A DNA stretch of 64,000 nt from Coprinellus micaceus. Taxonomy: Eukaryota > Basidiomycota > Agaricomycetes > Agaricales > Psathyrellaceae. Positions 23,283 through 31,926 of this stretch are shown piece after piece (the first letter of the stretch is position 1; each line of letters opens with the position of its first letter). The notes beneath the pieces are model-generated. The model had not been told where the DNA came from. It saw nothing but the letters and a program-made list of their open reading frames with translations, and did no database searches. The DNA lies in the NCBI GenBank assembly GCA_951394405.1, contig OX596341.1:2294001-2358000 (forward strand), given 5' to 3'. The position numbers were made by a program, and so were the translations under genes.

Positions 23283-23290
23283 GCTCACAC
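23283..23290 (+). repeat. Left target-site duplication GCTCACAC
   Basis: Perfect 8-bp match to 29578-29585. The match stops exactly at the terminal repeat on one side and at differing flank bases on the other. Confidence 0.85.
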
Positions 23291-23405
23291 TTGTCTCGTA
23301 CCCATCCGTTTCGGGGTGACCACCTACGGCGACGCGGAAAATCCACTGTCACTCCCACCAACGTCTGGGGCATTTGGCCCCTGTGACACTAGGTCGATGT
23401 CACAG
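23291..23405 (+). repeat. Left terminal inverted repeat (115 bp)
   Basis: The outer 21 bp match the right repeat at 20 positions and the inner 47 bp (23359-23405) at 43 positions. The 47 bp between them have diverged without length change. TGTCAC motifs occur at 23347, 23398 and just inside at 23413, and may be transposase binding sites. Confidence 0.85.
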
Positions 23406-23680
23406 CGCCAAATGTCACGCTATTCCGCGAAGCCAATGTTCGAATCCCCGCCCCGTCAATCGCATTTCGCCCCTCGCAATGGTAAATAACGGTCCTAAAT
23501 CCAATAGATTGGACCTGTATGTTCGCTCGTAATGTAGAAATAACTATCTAATTTTTGAGGCTCACCGGGAGGACATCGAGTTGGCGGGTGAGACATGTCT
23601 AGGGAGCAGGGGTGGTACAGGCTACCAAGTCCTGCTGGCCTCCAGGTCTCAGTTAAAGCTATCCTTGCCCCAGTGCCACC

Positions 23681-26610
23681 ATGGAATACGACGAGACTGC
23701 CGCCTACATCTTTTCGGATCCCGAGCCCCTTGCGCTGGATGAGGGGGACTCTGATATTCAAGCGAGCATCACCAGCTCGGACCACGAGCTCAGTGGTGGC
23801 TCCGTGCGTACCCCGGCTGCTTCCAGCGACCCGGGCGACCTTCAAAATGACGATGAAGAAGACGAGGAGGATATCTACCATCCCTTGTACCCGGATGTCG
23901 AGGAGGGGTCACAGGCCGGGTCTGAGGCCGAGGCTTCAGATATCTCGGAGGATGATGAACCTCCCAACTTTCCGCCTCTCGACGAGGACGTTCCGGAGGA
24001 GGAGCTGACGGCGAACAAATTCCGTGAAGCAACGCAGACAAGGAGACGCTCCCTTAACGACGAGTTCACTGTCACTGCCGTGAGGGAGGTGTGCAAGAGG
24101 ATGGGTGAGTGCGGTATTGACCTCGCCATATTCCTTGATGCCCTCAGCTGGGGGACGGACGGTTGCATCAAAGATGCGAAAATCAAGTACCAACGAACAA
24201 CTCTAATGCAGAGTGTCGAGCTCCCAAGCATCTTGAAGAGGTGGAACAAGCCACCACGGTCGTCCGCTTCAATGAAGCGCCCAGCCGGAGCTACAAGGGC
24301 GACAGACATGTTCGCAGTGGACACCGCCGGCCTTATCATCCTCCGGGAGCTCAAGGCACTCGCTCCACTCTTACGATTGCCTGCTGGAAGGGACGTGGTA
24401 TCGAAGGAGCTTACAAGTGCTGACATCCCATGGATGGTCAAGATCATGAAGGAGAAAGCACCATCATTTTGGAACTTGGTCGAGAGGATCCTCACTGAAG
24501 ACACACGAGCGGAGAAGAAGGACCCTGAGAAGGCACGCTTCGTTAAATTAATTCGTGCCCAAGAATGCATCGTACTCACCTTATTCTACAGGTCATCATT
24601 GCTATAATCTCGACCGCAGCCTACCACCGATCCCACCACTCCAATCTCCTTCCAAAACTCCTCGCGATTTATCTGAAGTTTAGAGGTGTGTCAGCGAAGG
24701 GCTTTGACATGCTTCACATCCTGGGGCTCACCATGAGTCATAAATGGGCTTGCGACGCCGTCGAACGGATGTCTACTCAAGCCATGCAGGAGGTCAGCCA
24801 GATGTTGGAGGAGTATCCATGGGTGCTGTCCTACGACAACGTAAACATACCCTTCCGCGTCTTCTCCCAACGTATCGACAACCAGAGCCAGCTCGGACAT
24901 GGCACTGCAGCGACTGTGTACTTCAAGCAAGACGCTGCCAAGCTATCCGAAGCCCTAAACGACCTGCTCAAGAAACAGCGTGCAGAAGGGATCAAGAAAC
25001 CACTGACCGCCCTTGAGATCATGGAGCTCGATCGTAAAGCAGCCCCCAAGGTCGAGCAGCGGATGGTGGACGTCGTCCTTCAGATGCTCCTCGATACTCC
25101 GGAGTTTGACTTCAAGACGTACAAGGACCGCGACTCTGAGATCCTTCATCCATCACCCCCAATCGACGCCCTCCCAACCGGTCCTGAGCACAAGACCCTC
25201 CAATACCTTCTTGGCACGGTCGACATCCCCGAGGTCAGCTACGAAGACAATAGTCGCCTGATGTCGGAATGGTTCCGCCAGCTAGGGTTTAACACGGAGG
25301 CGGAGCAGGTTAAACTTGCGATGAAGAAGGTAATTACCTGGGTTGGAGACCAGCTCACGGTTGACCGTCTGCGGCGTCTGTTCACGTTCCGTGCCGATGA
25401 CGACAACTCGCTGGACCGGATGGACAACGGTGTCTTCATCTTTGGGTGGCTCCACTTGCAGATGGCCTTTGCGAACTCGATACACAAGCAGTATTGGGGA
25501 ACGGCACAGGGGCGTCTGCTAGCACAGGCAGCTGAGTTGCTGGGAAAGAAGAAATTGGCAAAATCGCGTACCCAGGGCCCGTTCCATCATGACATCGTTG
25601 AGACGATTTACGAGGTCACCGAGGCTCACATCCTTGAGGACTGGCTGCGTGTTGGTGGTGTAAGCACTGTCGCAGAGCTTCGAGAGGCATCAGCGGCAAC
25701 ATTGAAGGACCAGGCACGTACCCTGGTGAAGACGGGTGCCTCAACCGAGGCTCTGGACAAGATGGACAGCGAGGGGAACATCGATGAAGTCCGCAGGCAT
25801 CTGGTGATGTATACGCGAGACACGCTCCATTACATTGTTCTCGACAAGGCTATCAAGACGGGGGATGTCGGTCTGATGGAAACACTCCTCCCCTACCTCC
25901 TGTTCCGATTTGTGGGTGGTGGGAACCCGAAGTACGCCAACGAGGTGCTGGAGTTGTTGCAGGGACTTGAGCGAGAGTGGCCTGAGGAGTTGAAGTGAGC
26001 ACTCCCATCTAGTATAACAGAAACGACCCTTACTTGTAGACACAGGGACTTCGTAAGGCACCACTGTTGGCTCGTCAACTTCTCCGGAAAGCCTGGAGTG
26101 TGGTGCCCTATTGACAAGGCCCAAGAGATGAACATCAAGGATATAAAGGTCACCTATCGTTCCGAGGGTCCGAACATCAAGTGGGAGTATCTCAAGAAAC
26201 TCCACCCCGCCATCCCCACCATTCGGACGGTCATCGACTTTCTCGAGCATCAATTCGGAACACTAGTACGAGGCAAGAGGCATGCAGTGCCAAGCAGGGA
26301 GAAGGATATCTTAAAGCTACGAAAAAGTTACGCAGCCTCGAACGCCCACGAAAATCGTCCCCACCGCAAGATCCCAAACGAACGTGACAAGGCAGAGGAC
26401 GTCGTGAGTGACGGAGCTCAGAAGGTCATGTTCTCTGACACACTACTTAACTGGGATAAGGGGAGGGCGTTCGAGCGGTCACAGAGGGAGGATTGGGGTT
26501 CCGAAGGAGGGAGTTCAGATGACTGGAGTGGAGCTGGCGGATCCAATGGTCCCTCAAGCACGGGTGAGGGCTCGAGAGATGCTGACGGCGGTCCTATGGC
26601 CACGGACTGA
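23681..26610 (+). CDS. DUF6589 protein, candidate transposase
   Basis: Exons 23681-24541, 24592-25994 and 26040-26610 give 944 residues. The introns are 50 nt (GTTAAA, branch TACTCAC) and 45 nt (GTGAGC). The first about 115 residues are acidic. The DUF6589 core runs from about residue 130 to 830. Conserved-looking blocks are SYDNVNIPF (D369), WVGDQLTVDR (D540), FGWLHLQMAF (H575), RDFVRHHCWLVNFSG (757-771) and PIDKAQEMNIKDIKV (778-792, E784). D369, D540 and E784 are spaced and placed like a DDE triad in an RNase H fold; this is inference. The tail is Gly/Ser-rich and its last 193 bp overlap the RecQ gene on the other strand. DUF6589 genes are numerous in Agaricomycetes. Here the gene sits inside terminal repeats, which supports a mobility role. 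Confidence 0.85.
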
Positions 26611-29313
26611 GACGGTGGCGGGAGTCGTAGAACAAGGGTTGGTAGAGGGGTGGCCGTGGTATGTCCTTTAGGTTTCTTGGGCTTGGGCTTAGGAACGGGT
26701 CTTCGTTTTGGCACTGTTGGGGTTGGCGATCTTGCGGGAGAGGAGTGGGAGGGGTCCATGAATGCGAGCGTTGTTTTTTCTTTTGCTTTTTCAGCGGCGT
26801 TACGTCTGGGTCGCTTGGATATATGGGAGGAGGTTGACGGTGTCTCCGGTGGTCGGATGTTTTCCTTTGCACGCTTCGAGGATTGTCGGGATGCAGGGGT
26901 TGGGGTGGCAGCTACTACAGGTTCCCTTGGTAGTGTTACAGCAAACTAGATTGAGAGTTAGCATAGAAGGTGTAGTTGAGATAAACTTAAGACTTACATT
27001 ATATTGGAACACCATCGGTGCACCTGTTGGAGGCGGCAGAGCCGGACTCGACGAGTCAAAGCTTCTAAAACCCTTTCGTTCGGCTTCCCTCTCCTTGAGC
27101 CAGGCCTCTGCCTCACGCATATCCCGTTTCCTCTGTGCCTCTAAGTCCTTCAGGCGTTTAGCCTCAGCCCTCTGCAGTCGTTCACGCTCCTTCTCCGCAG
27201 CTGCTGCATCACTTGCCGCTTTCTTCTGCTGTTTCACCCTCTCTTTCTCCCTATCCAGAGCCTGCACAACTTCAAACGCACGCTCAAACAGCATCTCCTG
27301 GTCTCCAACATCGTCCCCACTTGCTGTCGGCTTCCACCGTCCCAATCCCCACGGCATGTGAGCACACTCCTCGAGGTCCTCCAAGGACGTGATGTCACGA
27401 GTGTTGGCGAGTGAGTTGAGGAGTCGGTCTGGGAATATGACTGCGGCGATGAACGAGGATGGAGTGAAGTATCGAGCCTTCGTCGCAAATCGCCAGGTGA
27501 TGAGGTTTGCCTTGGCTTCCTTCAGATCATCCGTGTAGCGCTTCTTGCGCTTCGGTTTTGGAGGTACTGCTGGGGCCGTCAAGTCTTCGGGCACCTGCTG
27601 GACAGGAGGGGGGAGCATCGGCCGCTTGCCGTTGGGATTAGGGGATCCAGGAGCACTACCAGGGGGTGTTTCGGTTTCTTGAGCATCGGGGGACGGAGCA
27701 CGTGACATTGGTGCTGGTAGAGGTGGATCTTCGGGCGGCCCAGAGACACATATATCACAGCAATCGCCTGTTGGGTCTGTCGTGTGTTAGAACCGAGCGT
27801 GCATGGCAGTACATCATGACGAACCTTCTATCCTTGCCGGGTTACCAAAGTACCCATCAACAACATCTCGGCGGCACCCTTTGGCCTCAATCCAGAGACG
27901 AAGGGCGGGCTCAACCTTCTTCCGATACTCCACATCCTCATCTCTGGAGCTTCCCTCATCCTCTCCTTGATCTTCTCCCTCACCCCCTTCGCCCTCGGCA
28001 CTACCCCGCTTCACCTTCTCAAATACGGACGGCTCGACCAGCAGAATTGCCCGCGCCTGGATCCCCTTGTCTCGCCCTGCTCTCCCTGCCCGTTGGATCC
28101 ATACGGAGAGGGAAGAGGGAACACCGAGCTGGATGACCTGCTCAATGTCGGGGATGTCCGCACCCTAGCAGTCGTCAATTAGAGTGACCCAGCGCAACAA
28201 CAAAGTGTACTTACCATTCCAGCCGCCTCCGTTGCGATGAGAACCAACGTCTCTCCATCTCGTAACTGCCTCATTACTCGTCGTTTCGCCCGTGGTGTTC
28301 GCTGCGCATGGAGGACATCAACGTATCCTTTGAGGTGTTCGGGGAGTTGCTCCTTGATATGCTTGGCGAGAGCCTGTGCCGACGTGACACTGTTGACAAA
28401 GACAATGGACTTGCGAAGGTGCTCTCGGGCCAATGGGGTCTTGTTGGTGTTCGATAGCAGCGGGAGTATTGCATCGAAATCCGTTGGCGATTTGACGTGC
28501 TGGATGGACACCGTGATATTTGGCCGGTCGTTACCGCGATTGAGGAAGAATGCCTTATCGAGCTCGATGCCGAGGTGGTTTTGAACATCGCGCAGGGCGG
28601 GTGGGGTGAGCGTAGCTGTCGTAGCGAGGAAGGGGACGTGGGTGGGGAGGAAGGCACGCAAACGTTCGAGTTCGCCGTAGGTCTTGCGGAAGTCGCCGCC
28701 CCACTGCGAAATGCAGTGCGCCTCGTCAATAACCACCATCGTGATGTCCTCCGCCACGAGCGCGTTGCTGAGATAGGTTCGAAATGCTGGGTGTTGAAGG
28801 CACATCTCAGGCGAGGTGAAGATGGCCTGAATCTTGCCGTCTTCCAGCTTCTGCTTCCAAGGTTAATGTCCGGTGGTTGAGGATTAAGGAAATGTGACGT
28901 ACCCTCTGGAGCTTTGGCTTCCAGGTATCACCATTCACAGCAGCAGATCGAATACCGAGAGCTCGAAATCTTGCTACTTGGTCTGCTTGAAGGACCTTGA
29001 GGGGCGAAAGGATCAAGGCCTTGGCCTTCTTGTTCCTCATCAGGGGCAGCGCATAGGGGAACGTCTTTCCAGTGCCCGTGCCCGAAATTACAATAGAGTT
29101 CAGCCTCAGGCAGAGCGCCTCTGCCACATCCAGCTGCCAGTCCTGAGCGGGAGAGCCAAACTTCTCGAGAAATGCATCCTTCATCACCTGACGATCCGCC
29201 GCCGAATCGTACCCATCCTGCTCCTTCCTCTCCTCTCGGGCGGCTTGAAGGTTGTTGTAGCTCGTTTCATACTGTCGTAGGTGAGTGCTGGCGGCAACTT
29301 GTGTATTGGACAT
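26418..29313 (-). CDS. RecQ-type DEAH-box DNA helicase carried by the transposon
   Basis: Exons 29313-28903, 28853-28215, 28164-27825, 27776-26998 and 26945-26418 give 898 residues. Motifs: Walker A GTGTGKT (78-84), DEAH (180-183), RecQ aromatic-rich loop ISQWGGDFR (185-193), TTATLTPP (motif III), and QRAGRAGRD (374-382, motif VI). A RecQ-Zn signature follows: CRR, YFG and a CCDIC cluster split by intron 3. The C-terminal 430 residues have a coiled coil rich in Glu/Lys/Arg and a long basic Pro-rich tail with KRPRR-type signals, so the protein is probably nuclear. RecQ enzymes unwind DNA 3'-5' and process forks and recombination intermediates. Here it may act on transposition intermediates or repair of the donor site. 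The loop has Gly where cellular RecQ proteins usually have His (WGHDFR). Confidence 0.88.
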
Positions 29314-29462
29314 GGGCGGTAGGGACAGAACATGTTTGTTAGGAGTAGATATATGAGATTTAAATCAGCGATTGTTGAACGAGGTCACGGCGGTGGTGGT
29401 GGTAAACGAAGAGGCGCGACGCGTGTGTCACGTTTCTGAGCGCTGAGCGTGACTGTGACTAC

Positions 29463-29577
29463 CTGTGACATCGACGTAGTGTTACGGGGGCGAAATGCCC
29501 CAGACGTTGATGGTGTGACAGCGTCCTGGACGCGCCTCCTTGGAGGGCACATCCTAAAACGGACGGGTACGAGACAA
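29463..29577 (-). repeat. Right terminal inverted repeat (115 bp)
   Basis: Reverse complement of the left repeat with the same length and the same conserved outer and inner blocks. GTGACA motifs occur at 29465 and 29515, and TGTCAC at 29426 just inside the repeat. Confidence 0.85.
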
Positions 29578-29585
29578 GCTCACAC
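29578..29585 (+). repeat. Right target-site duplication GCTCACAC
   Basis: Second copy of the 8-bp direct repeat, abutting the right terminal inverted repeat. Confidence 0.85.
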
Positions 29586-29730
29586 CAAAATAGGCGCCGG
29601 AGCACGAAGATAATATTGGTGGATATGGTAAAAACAGGGAAGGAAATCTCAGGTCCGTTCAGTAAAGGAATGTGGCGCCGATGGGCGGCGAGGACGAGTC
29701 ACGCTGGATCGCGAGTGCACCCAGGTGACT

Positions 29731-31926
29731 CTAGTGGCACGACTCGAGGATCGTTGCTGCAGCTTTCTCAGCGATGAGGTAGACGGGACCCTGCGTGTGC
29801 GCATTGGGGATAGTGGGCTATAGGACATACAATCAGCGCAGTATACATGGATCCGAGCGGTGTTGCTCACCCAAATAGAGGCATCAACAACCCTCACGCC
29901 CTCAGCTCCTTTCAACTTCAAATCAGGGTCCACAACGCCCCACCCCTTGCCCTTCGCCGTCATCGACGCCGTCCCAACAGGATGGAACACCGTCGTCGAT
30001 TGCACCCTCACGTACGCATCGATATCCGCATCAGACGTCGATGCCAACCCTCCGAACGGCCGGTCAATATACCCCTTCCACGCAGTAGCGCTGGCGAAGC
30101 GCTTCACAGCTCTCACCGCCTCGCGAAGGGCAAAGATATCAAACTCGGTTGTGAGCATCTTAGGATCGATGATGGGCGCTTCGAATGGATCGGCCGAAGA
30201 GAGTTTGACGAAGCCACGCGAGGTGGGCGAGATCAGAGCGGAGATGAAGGTGATGAAATTACCGGCTGGAGGGAGGGGGACGCCCGGGTTCAGCCAGAAG
30301 TTCTACAGCGATCACTGTCAGAATCAGAAGTATGGGAGAAGCGCAACCTTACCAGCGCGATGATCTCCCAGTGCGAAGCCTTCGGGCCAGTCGCAGGGTC
30401 TTTCGTCGTCTTGAAGATCGGGGCATCGTTTGGCAGCCTCAGGAATCCCAAGTTATTTGTAACCCCGTTGGCCATGAGGCCTGTGCGGTTGTTCATCCAT
30501 TGCTCGACGGCAACGTTGGCCTTGGCGGGGACTCTGAAGATTTGGTCGAAGCTCTCGCTGCCTTTCACTTGGAAGATGTTGGGAAGGAGGATGTGGTCGG
30601 AGAGGTTTCGTCCAACGGACGGGTTGTCAAGGATAACAGGGATGCCAAGGGCTTGCAAATCCTGCTTCGGTCCGATGCCAGACAGCAAGAGGATTTGAGG
30701 GGTGTTGATAGCGCCTGCGGAAAGAACGATCTCTTTCTTTGCGCGCACCGTGGTGACTGGGGCTAGAGGATGTTGACTCAGAATCGAAGTAGCATAGATC
30801 GACGAGCTCACATACCCCCTGGTCCCGTAGCGAACTGGAGCGAGCGGAATACAGGAACCGTGTACCCCTTCGGCAACTTAGTCGTCCCCGTCTGCACGAG
30901 CTTCGTCACATGGGCATTTGTGAGAACGTCCACATTTCCTCGCTTAACCGCCTCAGCGAGATAGGTCGTCGAAGAACTACTCCGCTCGCCCCCTCCGATT
31001 GAGTTCTGTGTCCAGCCAATCCCAAGCACATCGCCTCCACCCATATCTGGGTTGAAGGGGAACTCGGCTGAAAGCTCCTTCGTCGTGTCAATGACGCGCT
31101 TGTCGATGCCTTGGGGATTTCCGGGAAGGCTGACGGAGAGCGTGCCTTTGGTGCCATGGTTTTCCGGGATGAACTCACCCTCGGTGCGGTGGTCGTCGGC
31201 AGGAGGTACAATCTTCTCGTGCTACGACGTCGGCGCGTTAGAGCAGGGTTAGGTTGGACGCCCGAGGGAACGTACCACTTGGATGAATTTGCGGATTTTG
31301 TTCCAGCTCCAGCTGGAATCTCCAGTGTCCCTGGCGAGCTTATCATAATCCTCAGACGACCCGAATTGATGCACCATATAGTCTTTATGGGTGCGCACTC
31401 AGTACAGTTTCGCCTTTGATCAAATGACCGAACTCGACTTACTGACTGATGAGCAGCCACCTAGCAGCTTGCCTCGGGGGTAGGGGAAGCTCCTGCTGTT
31501 CAGCCCAGTTTGGGCTGCGACGGTGTAGTTCCAGTCGAAGGGCGTTCCCGGTGTCAATGTTGGACCTAGGAAAGGGACCTGTGCGGCAAGTACACCTTGA
31601 TCACTATCGAGAGAAATCGTCGGTTAGTCTCTCAGGATATGTGACGTCAGAAGTGAACTAATACCTGACCCCAGCCTCGAGGACAAGGACCTTGATGTTG
31701 GGCTTCATGGAAAGGCGATTAGCGACCACATTGCCGGCGGTTCCAGCTGCAGAACTTCGTGAGCCAGGCGTCGTGCAACTGAACGGGAGATGCTCGTACC
31801 GCCAACGACGATATAGTCGTATGTTAGGTCCTTCCTGAGCTGCGAAGGGTCGGTAAGGAGTCCTCCGAGCGTCGGTGCAGCTAGGAAGAACGCGATAATC
31901 GTCCAGACCCCAAGGGAGATAGGCAT
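29731..31926 (-). CDS. Secreted GMC oxidoreductase (aryl-alcohol oxidase-like, AA3)
   Basis: Eight exons (31926-31800, 31746-31665, 31603-31443, 31397-31276, 31215-30816, 30762-30353, 30302-29871, 29817-29731) encode 606 residues. Residues 1-20 are a signal peptide (hydrophobic core WTIIAFFLAAP). The FAD-binding ADP motif is VVGAGTAGNVVANRL, completed only after splicing exon 1 to 2. RGKLLGGCSSV and the GMC signature SAGAINTPQILLLSGIG follow. The catalytic pair is H541 (FHPVGTASM) and H585 (NAHTQGPVYLIAE). Such enzymes oxidise aromatic or aliphatic alcohols or sugars and feed hydrogen peroxide to peroxidases in wood and litter decay. The substrate cannot be read from sequence; a sugar dehydrogenase is the alternative. 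The stop lies only 154 bp from the transposon end. Confidence 0.88.

Follow-up and report, generated by a model that had tools for sequence, protein, structure and literature searches.

The 64,000-nucleotide stretch of Coprinellus micaceus DNA analysed here (the window) harbors an element at 23291-29577, located between two copies of GCTCACAC, which carries a DUF6589 gene on the plus strand and a RecQ-type helicase gene on the minus strand. The splice sites of both genes are predictions from the sequence, and the introns are predicted rather than observed. The features are:

23283..23290, plus strand: left target-site duplication GCTCACAC, identical to 29578-29585
23291..23405, plus strand: left terminal inverted repeat, beginning TTGTCTCGTACCC (blastn inverted match; the same end occurs elsewhere in the genome)
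23681..24541, plus strand: DUF6589 predicted exon 1, which covers the acidic N-terminus and the helical N-terminal part (open frame; matches positions 7-160 of a profile of DUF6589 relatives)
24592..25994, plus strand: DUF6589 predicted exon 2, which carries the bulk of the RNase H-like core and of the helical insertion (Pfam PF20231, E 1.1e-89)
26040..26610, plus strand: DUF6589 predicted exon 3, which contains the helix bearing the third acidic residue and ends with the stop codon 26608-26610 (Pfam PF20231, E 3.5e-24)
26418..26945, minus strand: RecQ helicase predicted exon 5, low-complexity C-terminus, stop codon 26418-26420
26998..27776, minus strand: RecQ helicase predicted exon 4, with the remaining part of the Cys4 zinc-binding stretch and a charged tail
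27825..28164, minus strand: RecQ helicase predicted exon 3, QRAGRAGRD
28215..28853, minus strand: RecQ helicase predicted exon 2, DEAH box and CISQWGGDFR
28903..29313, minus strand: RecQ helicase predicted exon 1, start codon at 29313 and Walker A motif GTGTGKT
29463..29577, minus strand: right terminal inverted repeat (blastn inverted match to the left repeat)
29578..29585, plus strand: right target-site duplication GCTCACAC, identical to 23283-23290

The 8-bp target duplication is perfect, as a preliminary description of this DNA had claimed, and the 115-bp terminal inverted repeats that it had reported are present, though imperfect, with 78.8% identity over 118 columns in a blastn match that adds one base per outer end; 19/20 positions are identical in the outer 20 bp, and identity is 90% in an inner block of 51 bp. 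In the 64-kb window, this is the sole place where an 8-bp duplication brackets inverted 20-mers that agree in 16/20 or more positions and lie no more than 12 kb apart, and such a pair was present in 0/20 simulated windows (first-order Markov), the best of which reached 12-15 of 20. Immediately next to the right end of the element are reading frames of the GMC oxidoreductase type, with both the N-terminal and the C-terminal Pfam domain (29649-30877, minus strand); the nearer one ends 64 bp from the right duplication.

The further claim that the element encloses exactly two intact genes has held, given that both frames are open in the predicted models (with GT-AG introns predicted at 45-52 bp), and no third gene was found inside the ends. 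The three predicted exons of the DUF6589 gene encode 944 amino acids, and residues 422-836 match positions 3-410 of the 410 positions of PF20231 (E 1.6e-118). The helicase gene extends from 29313 down to 26418, and its five predicted exons encode 898 amino acids. Its identification as RecQ-type was likewise borne out: among solved structures, RecQ proteins are its nearest relatives (E 5e-38, the query being the first 708 of 898 residues), and the protein possesses an SF2 core with DEAH, the CISQWGxDFR loop, and a Cys4 zinc site, the cysteines of which are 91-100% conserved in 60 relatives; the match to the Pfam model RecQ_Zn_bind is weak (E 0.044, under the cut-off of the model). In these gene models, the convergent coding regions run into each other for about 190 bp at their ends (26418-26610), and the true C-terminus of one of the proteins may lie earlier than modelled.

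Two predicted models of the DUF6589 protein have an RNase H core on which the D, D, and E residues follow one another in canonical order, and DDE-type enzymes head both structure-comparison lists, with the proviso that the absence of a family from these lists does not exclude that family. The proposed catalytic residues are:

24835..24837, plus strand: codon of Asp369 (motif YDN), proposed first catalytic residue (D in 126/129 non-gap rows of the alignment; on strand 249-259 of the model)
25348..25350, plus strand: codon of Asp540 (motif GDQLT), proposed second catalytic residue (D in 128/128 non-gap rows; just after strand 385-389 of the model)
26125..26127, plus strand: codon of Glu784 (motif QEMNIK), proposed third catalytic residue (E in 121/122 non-gap rows; in helix 627-645 of the model)

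The predicted structure and the conservation suggest that DUF6589 would be catalytic. When DUF6589 was compared with solved structures by sequence, as a single query and as a profile, nothing meaningful was obtained, and a Pfam scan of 50 relatives (E <= 1) returned PF20231 in 50/50 and otherwise scattered weak matches. The alignment also contains a fully invariant histidine column, at His425, just after the fifth strand and in a G-x-x-H setting.

The preliminary description had anticipated other loci with the same ends, and these exist. In the 50.3 Mb of genome searched, where the window belongs to contig C8 and loci are named by contig, the left end matches at least 16 places (a lower bound), representing 13 elements. 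The expectation that copies carry both genes was realized for the window's element, C9a, and C1b, the other elements being short or deleted: C12 is a 1,702-bp internal-deletion copy that is 92-98% like C9a, C10 measures 812 bp, and eight further copies are short, with both ends in 7/8. The C12 copy (C12:58411-60112) has kept a helicase fragment and both ends and is flanked by an exact 8-bp duplication. Exact duplications flank 10/13 elements of the family, and all ten are 8 bp in length: GCTCACAC, AGTCCAAT, GGCTCGGT, GTGAAGAC, CCCATATC, GGAGTCAG, GCATCTGC, GTATACCC and, judged by eye, AGCAAACC and GCATCCAT. The short copies with exact duplications are miniature elements of 89-132 bp. At the short copy C9:2261147, the duplication matches in 6/8 bases (by eye), the right end of C1b falls in a run of N, and one place on C7 has one end only.

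The PF20231 profile matches the genome 25 times, distributed over 15 loci. In the sister families, meaning those other than the window's family, the ends begin mostly with TAGAC or TAGG, and the duplications are 9 bp at C4a, C8b, C9b, C6, C11b, C11a, and C7 (the ends of which are CAGGCTCC), and 10 bp at C4b. Of the 15 two-gene loci, 10 are flanked by exact duplications (8 bp at two of them, 9 bp at seven, and 10 bp at one). The possibility, raised in the preliminary description, that the two genes lie without terminal repeats may apply to a few of the other 5/15, for which no sound pair of ends was established, namely C1b (gap), C11c (weak, 8 bp), and C11d, C1a, and C12b, where ends were looked for and none were found. 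It should be noted that the ends of C11a, C11b, and C11c come from scans of 7-8.5 million position pairs each and are less secure than the others; for C11a, an alternative 8-bp duplication is possible, and the 9-bp reading with TAGG ends is preferred. The C11b copy (C11:412915-419871) is the sole two-gene copy with helicase and DUF6589 genes arranged head-to-head, still between 9-bp duplications. The C4a and C4b copies (C4:3522880-3528760 and C4:4207390-4213270) differ at only 8/5,885 positions (99.86% identity), and thus their family has moved recently; with one 9-bp and one 10-bp duplication, this pair indicates that the stagger may be variable within one family.

Empty sites had been predicted as well, and paralogous ones were recovered for C9a and for the sister-family copy C8b. 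The C9a copy sits in a multicopy repeat, and its joined flanks match about 30/41 listed places across the junction, covering at least positions 32-240 of the query; four aligned empty places contain a single AGTCCAAT (two places) or a single AGTCCAAC (two places). The C8b copy is located in another repeat, where 40/40 scored matches cross the junction and three aligned empty places contain a single 9-bp target, one of them with one difference. For the window insertion itself, and for C10, no paralogous empty site was found in the genome, and the joined flanks of C7 gave one match of 73% identity that crosses the junction by only a few bases.

The pairing of the two genes is the rule and not a peculiarity of the window, in accordance with the preliminary description: the profile scan places a RecQ-like helicase gene on the opposite strand at 15/15 DUF6589 loci, tail-to-tail at 14 and head-to-head at one (C11b). 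Of 16 helicase matches in the genome, 13 are at two-gene loci and one is in the C12 deletion copy, while two lie elsewhere and are probably host RecQ genes. Protein distances of DUF6589 and helicase agree over 14 loci (C4b was left out as a near-copy of C4a), with a Mantel r of 0.91 that was reached in 0/20,000 shuffles, and both trees contain the groups window+C1b+C9a, the TAGAC clade, C1a+C11a, and C11c+C11d. Between C1b and C9a, dN/dS comes to about 0.04 in DUF6589 segments and 0.10 in a helicase segment, which points to purifying selection on both genes; at other locus pairs, synonymous sites are near or beyond saturation.

The pairing extends to other fungi. Among the matches listed (the best 120 of 4,261 for the helicase, and the best 120 of 349 and the best 120 of 164 for DUF6589), 42/120 helicase relatives share a contig with one of 120 DUF6589 relatives, sharing being scored by equal species and equal contig size rather than by gene distance, with no size common to two species. 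The 78/120 listed helicases that do not share comprise 41 from species without a listed DUF6589 match and 37 from species with one (one of these rows stems from a metagenome). Shared contigs among the matches listed include two of only 6,315 and 8,377 bases, and locus tags of helicase and DUF6589 genes are consecutive in three cases (NMY22_g2724/g2725, NLJ89_g10340/g10341, and ONZ51_g5810/g5811). The closest named protein relatives among the matches listed are from Ephemerocybe, Coprinellus, Coprinopsis, and Candolleomyces. In the best 120 of 349 and of 164 DUF6589 matches, many rows are nameless and all named relatives are hypothetical, uncharacterised, or unnamed proteins from genera that we take to be Agaricomycetes. 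The DUF6589 profile matched 0/14 control genomes, and tblastn against plasmids gave no match. The suggestion that the element explains the abundance of DUF6589 is supported, as mushrooms would owe their many DUF6589 genes to the proliferation of elements of this kind.

Taken together, the locus is very probably an autonomous class II transposon, in which DUF6589 would be the DDE transposase and the RecQ helicase the element's own accessory factor. The interpretation of the two-gene unit as a transposon, put forward in the preliminary description, is supported by the same ends and 8-bp duplications elsewhere and by the empty sites of a sister copy. As expected for a DDE class II element, terminal repeats and duplications are present at several loci, and an RNase H fold with D, D, and E appears in the predicted structure. 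The DNA itself displays the ends, the duplications, the dispersed copies, the empty paralogous sites of a sister copy, the linkage and congruent divergence of the genes, and purifying selection. DUF6589 would bind both terminal inverted repeats, excise the element via an RNase H-type active site formed by Asp369, Asp540, and Glu784, and insert it at a target whose strands are cut 8 bp apart, a stagger that repair would convert into the 8-bp duplication. The RecQ helicase would most likely act 3' to 5' on transposition intermediates, either by opening the long terminal repeats or by processing the gap and the donor break; a role in DNA intermediates is proposed because of the constant pairing, the congruent distances, and the selection. 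Short gene-less copies would presumably be mobilised in trans. Movement by cut-and-paste rather than replication, mobilisation of the short copies in trans, the step of the helicase, and present-day activity are inferences.

Alternatively, the helicase might be a passenger or a captured host gene without a part in transposition. RecQ is a common host gene, and the miniature copies lack a helicase, which therefore must be supplied in trans or is not needed. However, the helicase is present at all 15 loci of these diverged clades, with congruent distances and trees, and across such divergence a mere passenger should have disappeared or been exchanged; it is under purifying selection and shares contigs with DUF6589 in many other species among the matches listed. 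The head-to-head copy, a result that goes against the present reading, indicates that the arrangement is not fixed, but the pairing is, and a passenger is improbable. It is very unlikely that DUF6589 is not the transposase and that another enzyme moves the element with both genes as cargo. The DUF6589 sequence matches no named transposase family and the Foldseek E-values of its model are weak, which counts against its assignment as a transposase, but D-D-E is placed on an RNase H core in two models, DDE-type enzymes top both structure lists, and no third gene was found inside the ends. Hardly any weight can be given to a static host gene pair between inverted repeats, which is contradicted by dispersed copies with target duplications and by empty sites, or to a rolling-circle element of the Helitron type. 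Helicases do occur in Helitrons, but Helitrons make no target duplications, and the helicase of the element is RecQ and not PIF1-like.

If DUF6589 proteins are named as transposases of a RecQ-bearing transposon, annotators could mask them, and the assignment would help to explain the surplus of RecQ-like genes in mushroom genomes. The group is also a tractable set for asking why some DDE transposons carry a helicase. Its miniature copies of less than 140 bp are ready-made substrates, and the presence of clades with different duplication lengths in one genome would make it possible to map the stagger to the transposase.

In the open-licence literature searched, which is no proof of absence in print, no mention of DUF6589 was found, PF20231 occurred solely in an unrelated optics paper, and no paper on a DUF6589-helicase pairing was found besides those on AcademH and KolobokH. 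KolobokH (PMC9587614) shares with the window's element that it is a fungal DDE transposon encoding a RecQ helicase, but this helicase is reported to lie downstream of the transposase domain, whereas the window's helicase is a separate gene on the other strand. Kolobok duplications are TTAA (4 bp). Kolobok was rejected: TTAA is absent, and the duplications are 8, 9, or 10 bp of varied sequence. Solved hAT and P-element folds (Hermes and Drosophila P) are the closest to the DUF6589 models and share the helical insertion before the catalytic glutamate; hAT and P elements generate 8-bp duplications, which hAT has in common with the window's family, and they differ from the window's element in its own RecQ helicase and its 115-bp terminal repeats. 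MuDR/MULE elements have long terminal repeats and 8- to 10-bp duplications, like the elements described here, and are likewise distinguished by the window element's own RecQ helicase. Among the matches of 50 DUF6589 proteins (E <= 1, remoter homology being beyond the reach of HMMER), no hAT, P-element, THAP, MULE transposase, or Zisupton/KDZ transposase domain was present.

By description, the element also resembles AcademH, a lineage of the Academ superfamily that was reportedly described by Kojima in 2020. Of the earlier proposal of a possibly undescribed transposon group, the transposon has stood, and its novelty is not secured in view of this resemblance. We consider it somewhat more probable than the opposite that the whole group, including the sister families, is the AcademH lineage, in which case only the DUF6589 label would be new; this would be compatible with the transposase mechanism proposed above. 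Academ proteins presumably carry a Cys8 zinc finger, whereas no cysteine column of DUF6589 is conserved above 58% in 130 sequences. In the available excerpts, AcademH is a source of transposon helicases and is low-copy in Basidiomycota, Ascomycota, and Mucoromycota (PMC10799480), its target duplications are 9 or 10 bp (PMC10045372), and Academ is counted as one of the superfamilies whose transposase is of the DDD/E type. Like AcademH as described there, the element is a DNA transposon, low-copy in a basidiomycete, with a helicase gene beside the transposase candidate. The eight two-gene sister copies fit the 9 or 10 bp given in these excerpts, while the window's family differs, with 8 bp in 10/10 exact cases, which counts against AcademH. 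A bolder and tentative alternative, to which we assign a lower probability, is that DUF6589 represents a separate, unnamed DDE lineage at the superfamily level and not Academ, that the self-encoded RecQ is dedicated to transposition and has been passed on together with the transposase across deep divergence, and that duplication length (8 versus 9-10 bp) follows the transposase clade. Going by the descriptions of AcademH, the element works in the same way and may be a variant of it with an 8-bp stagger or a separate lineage.
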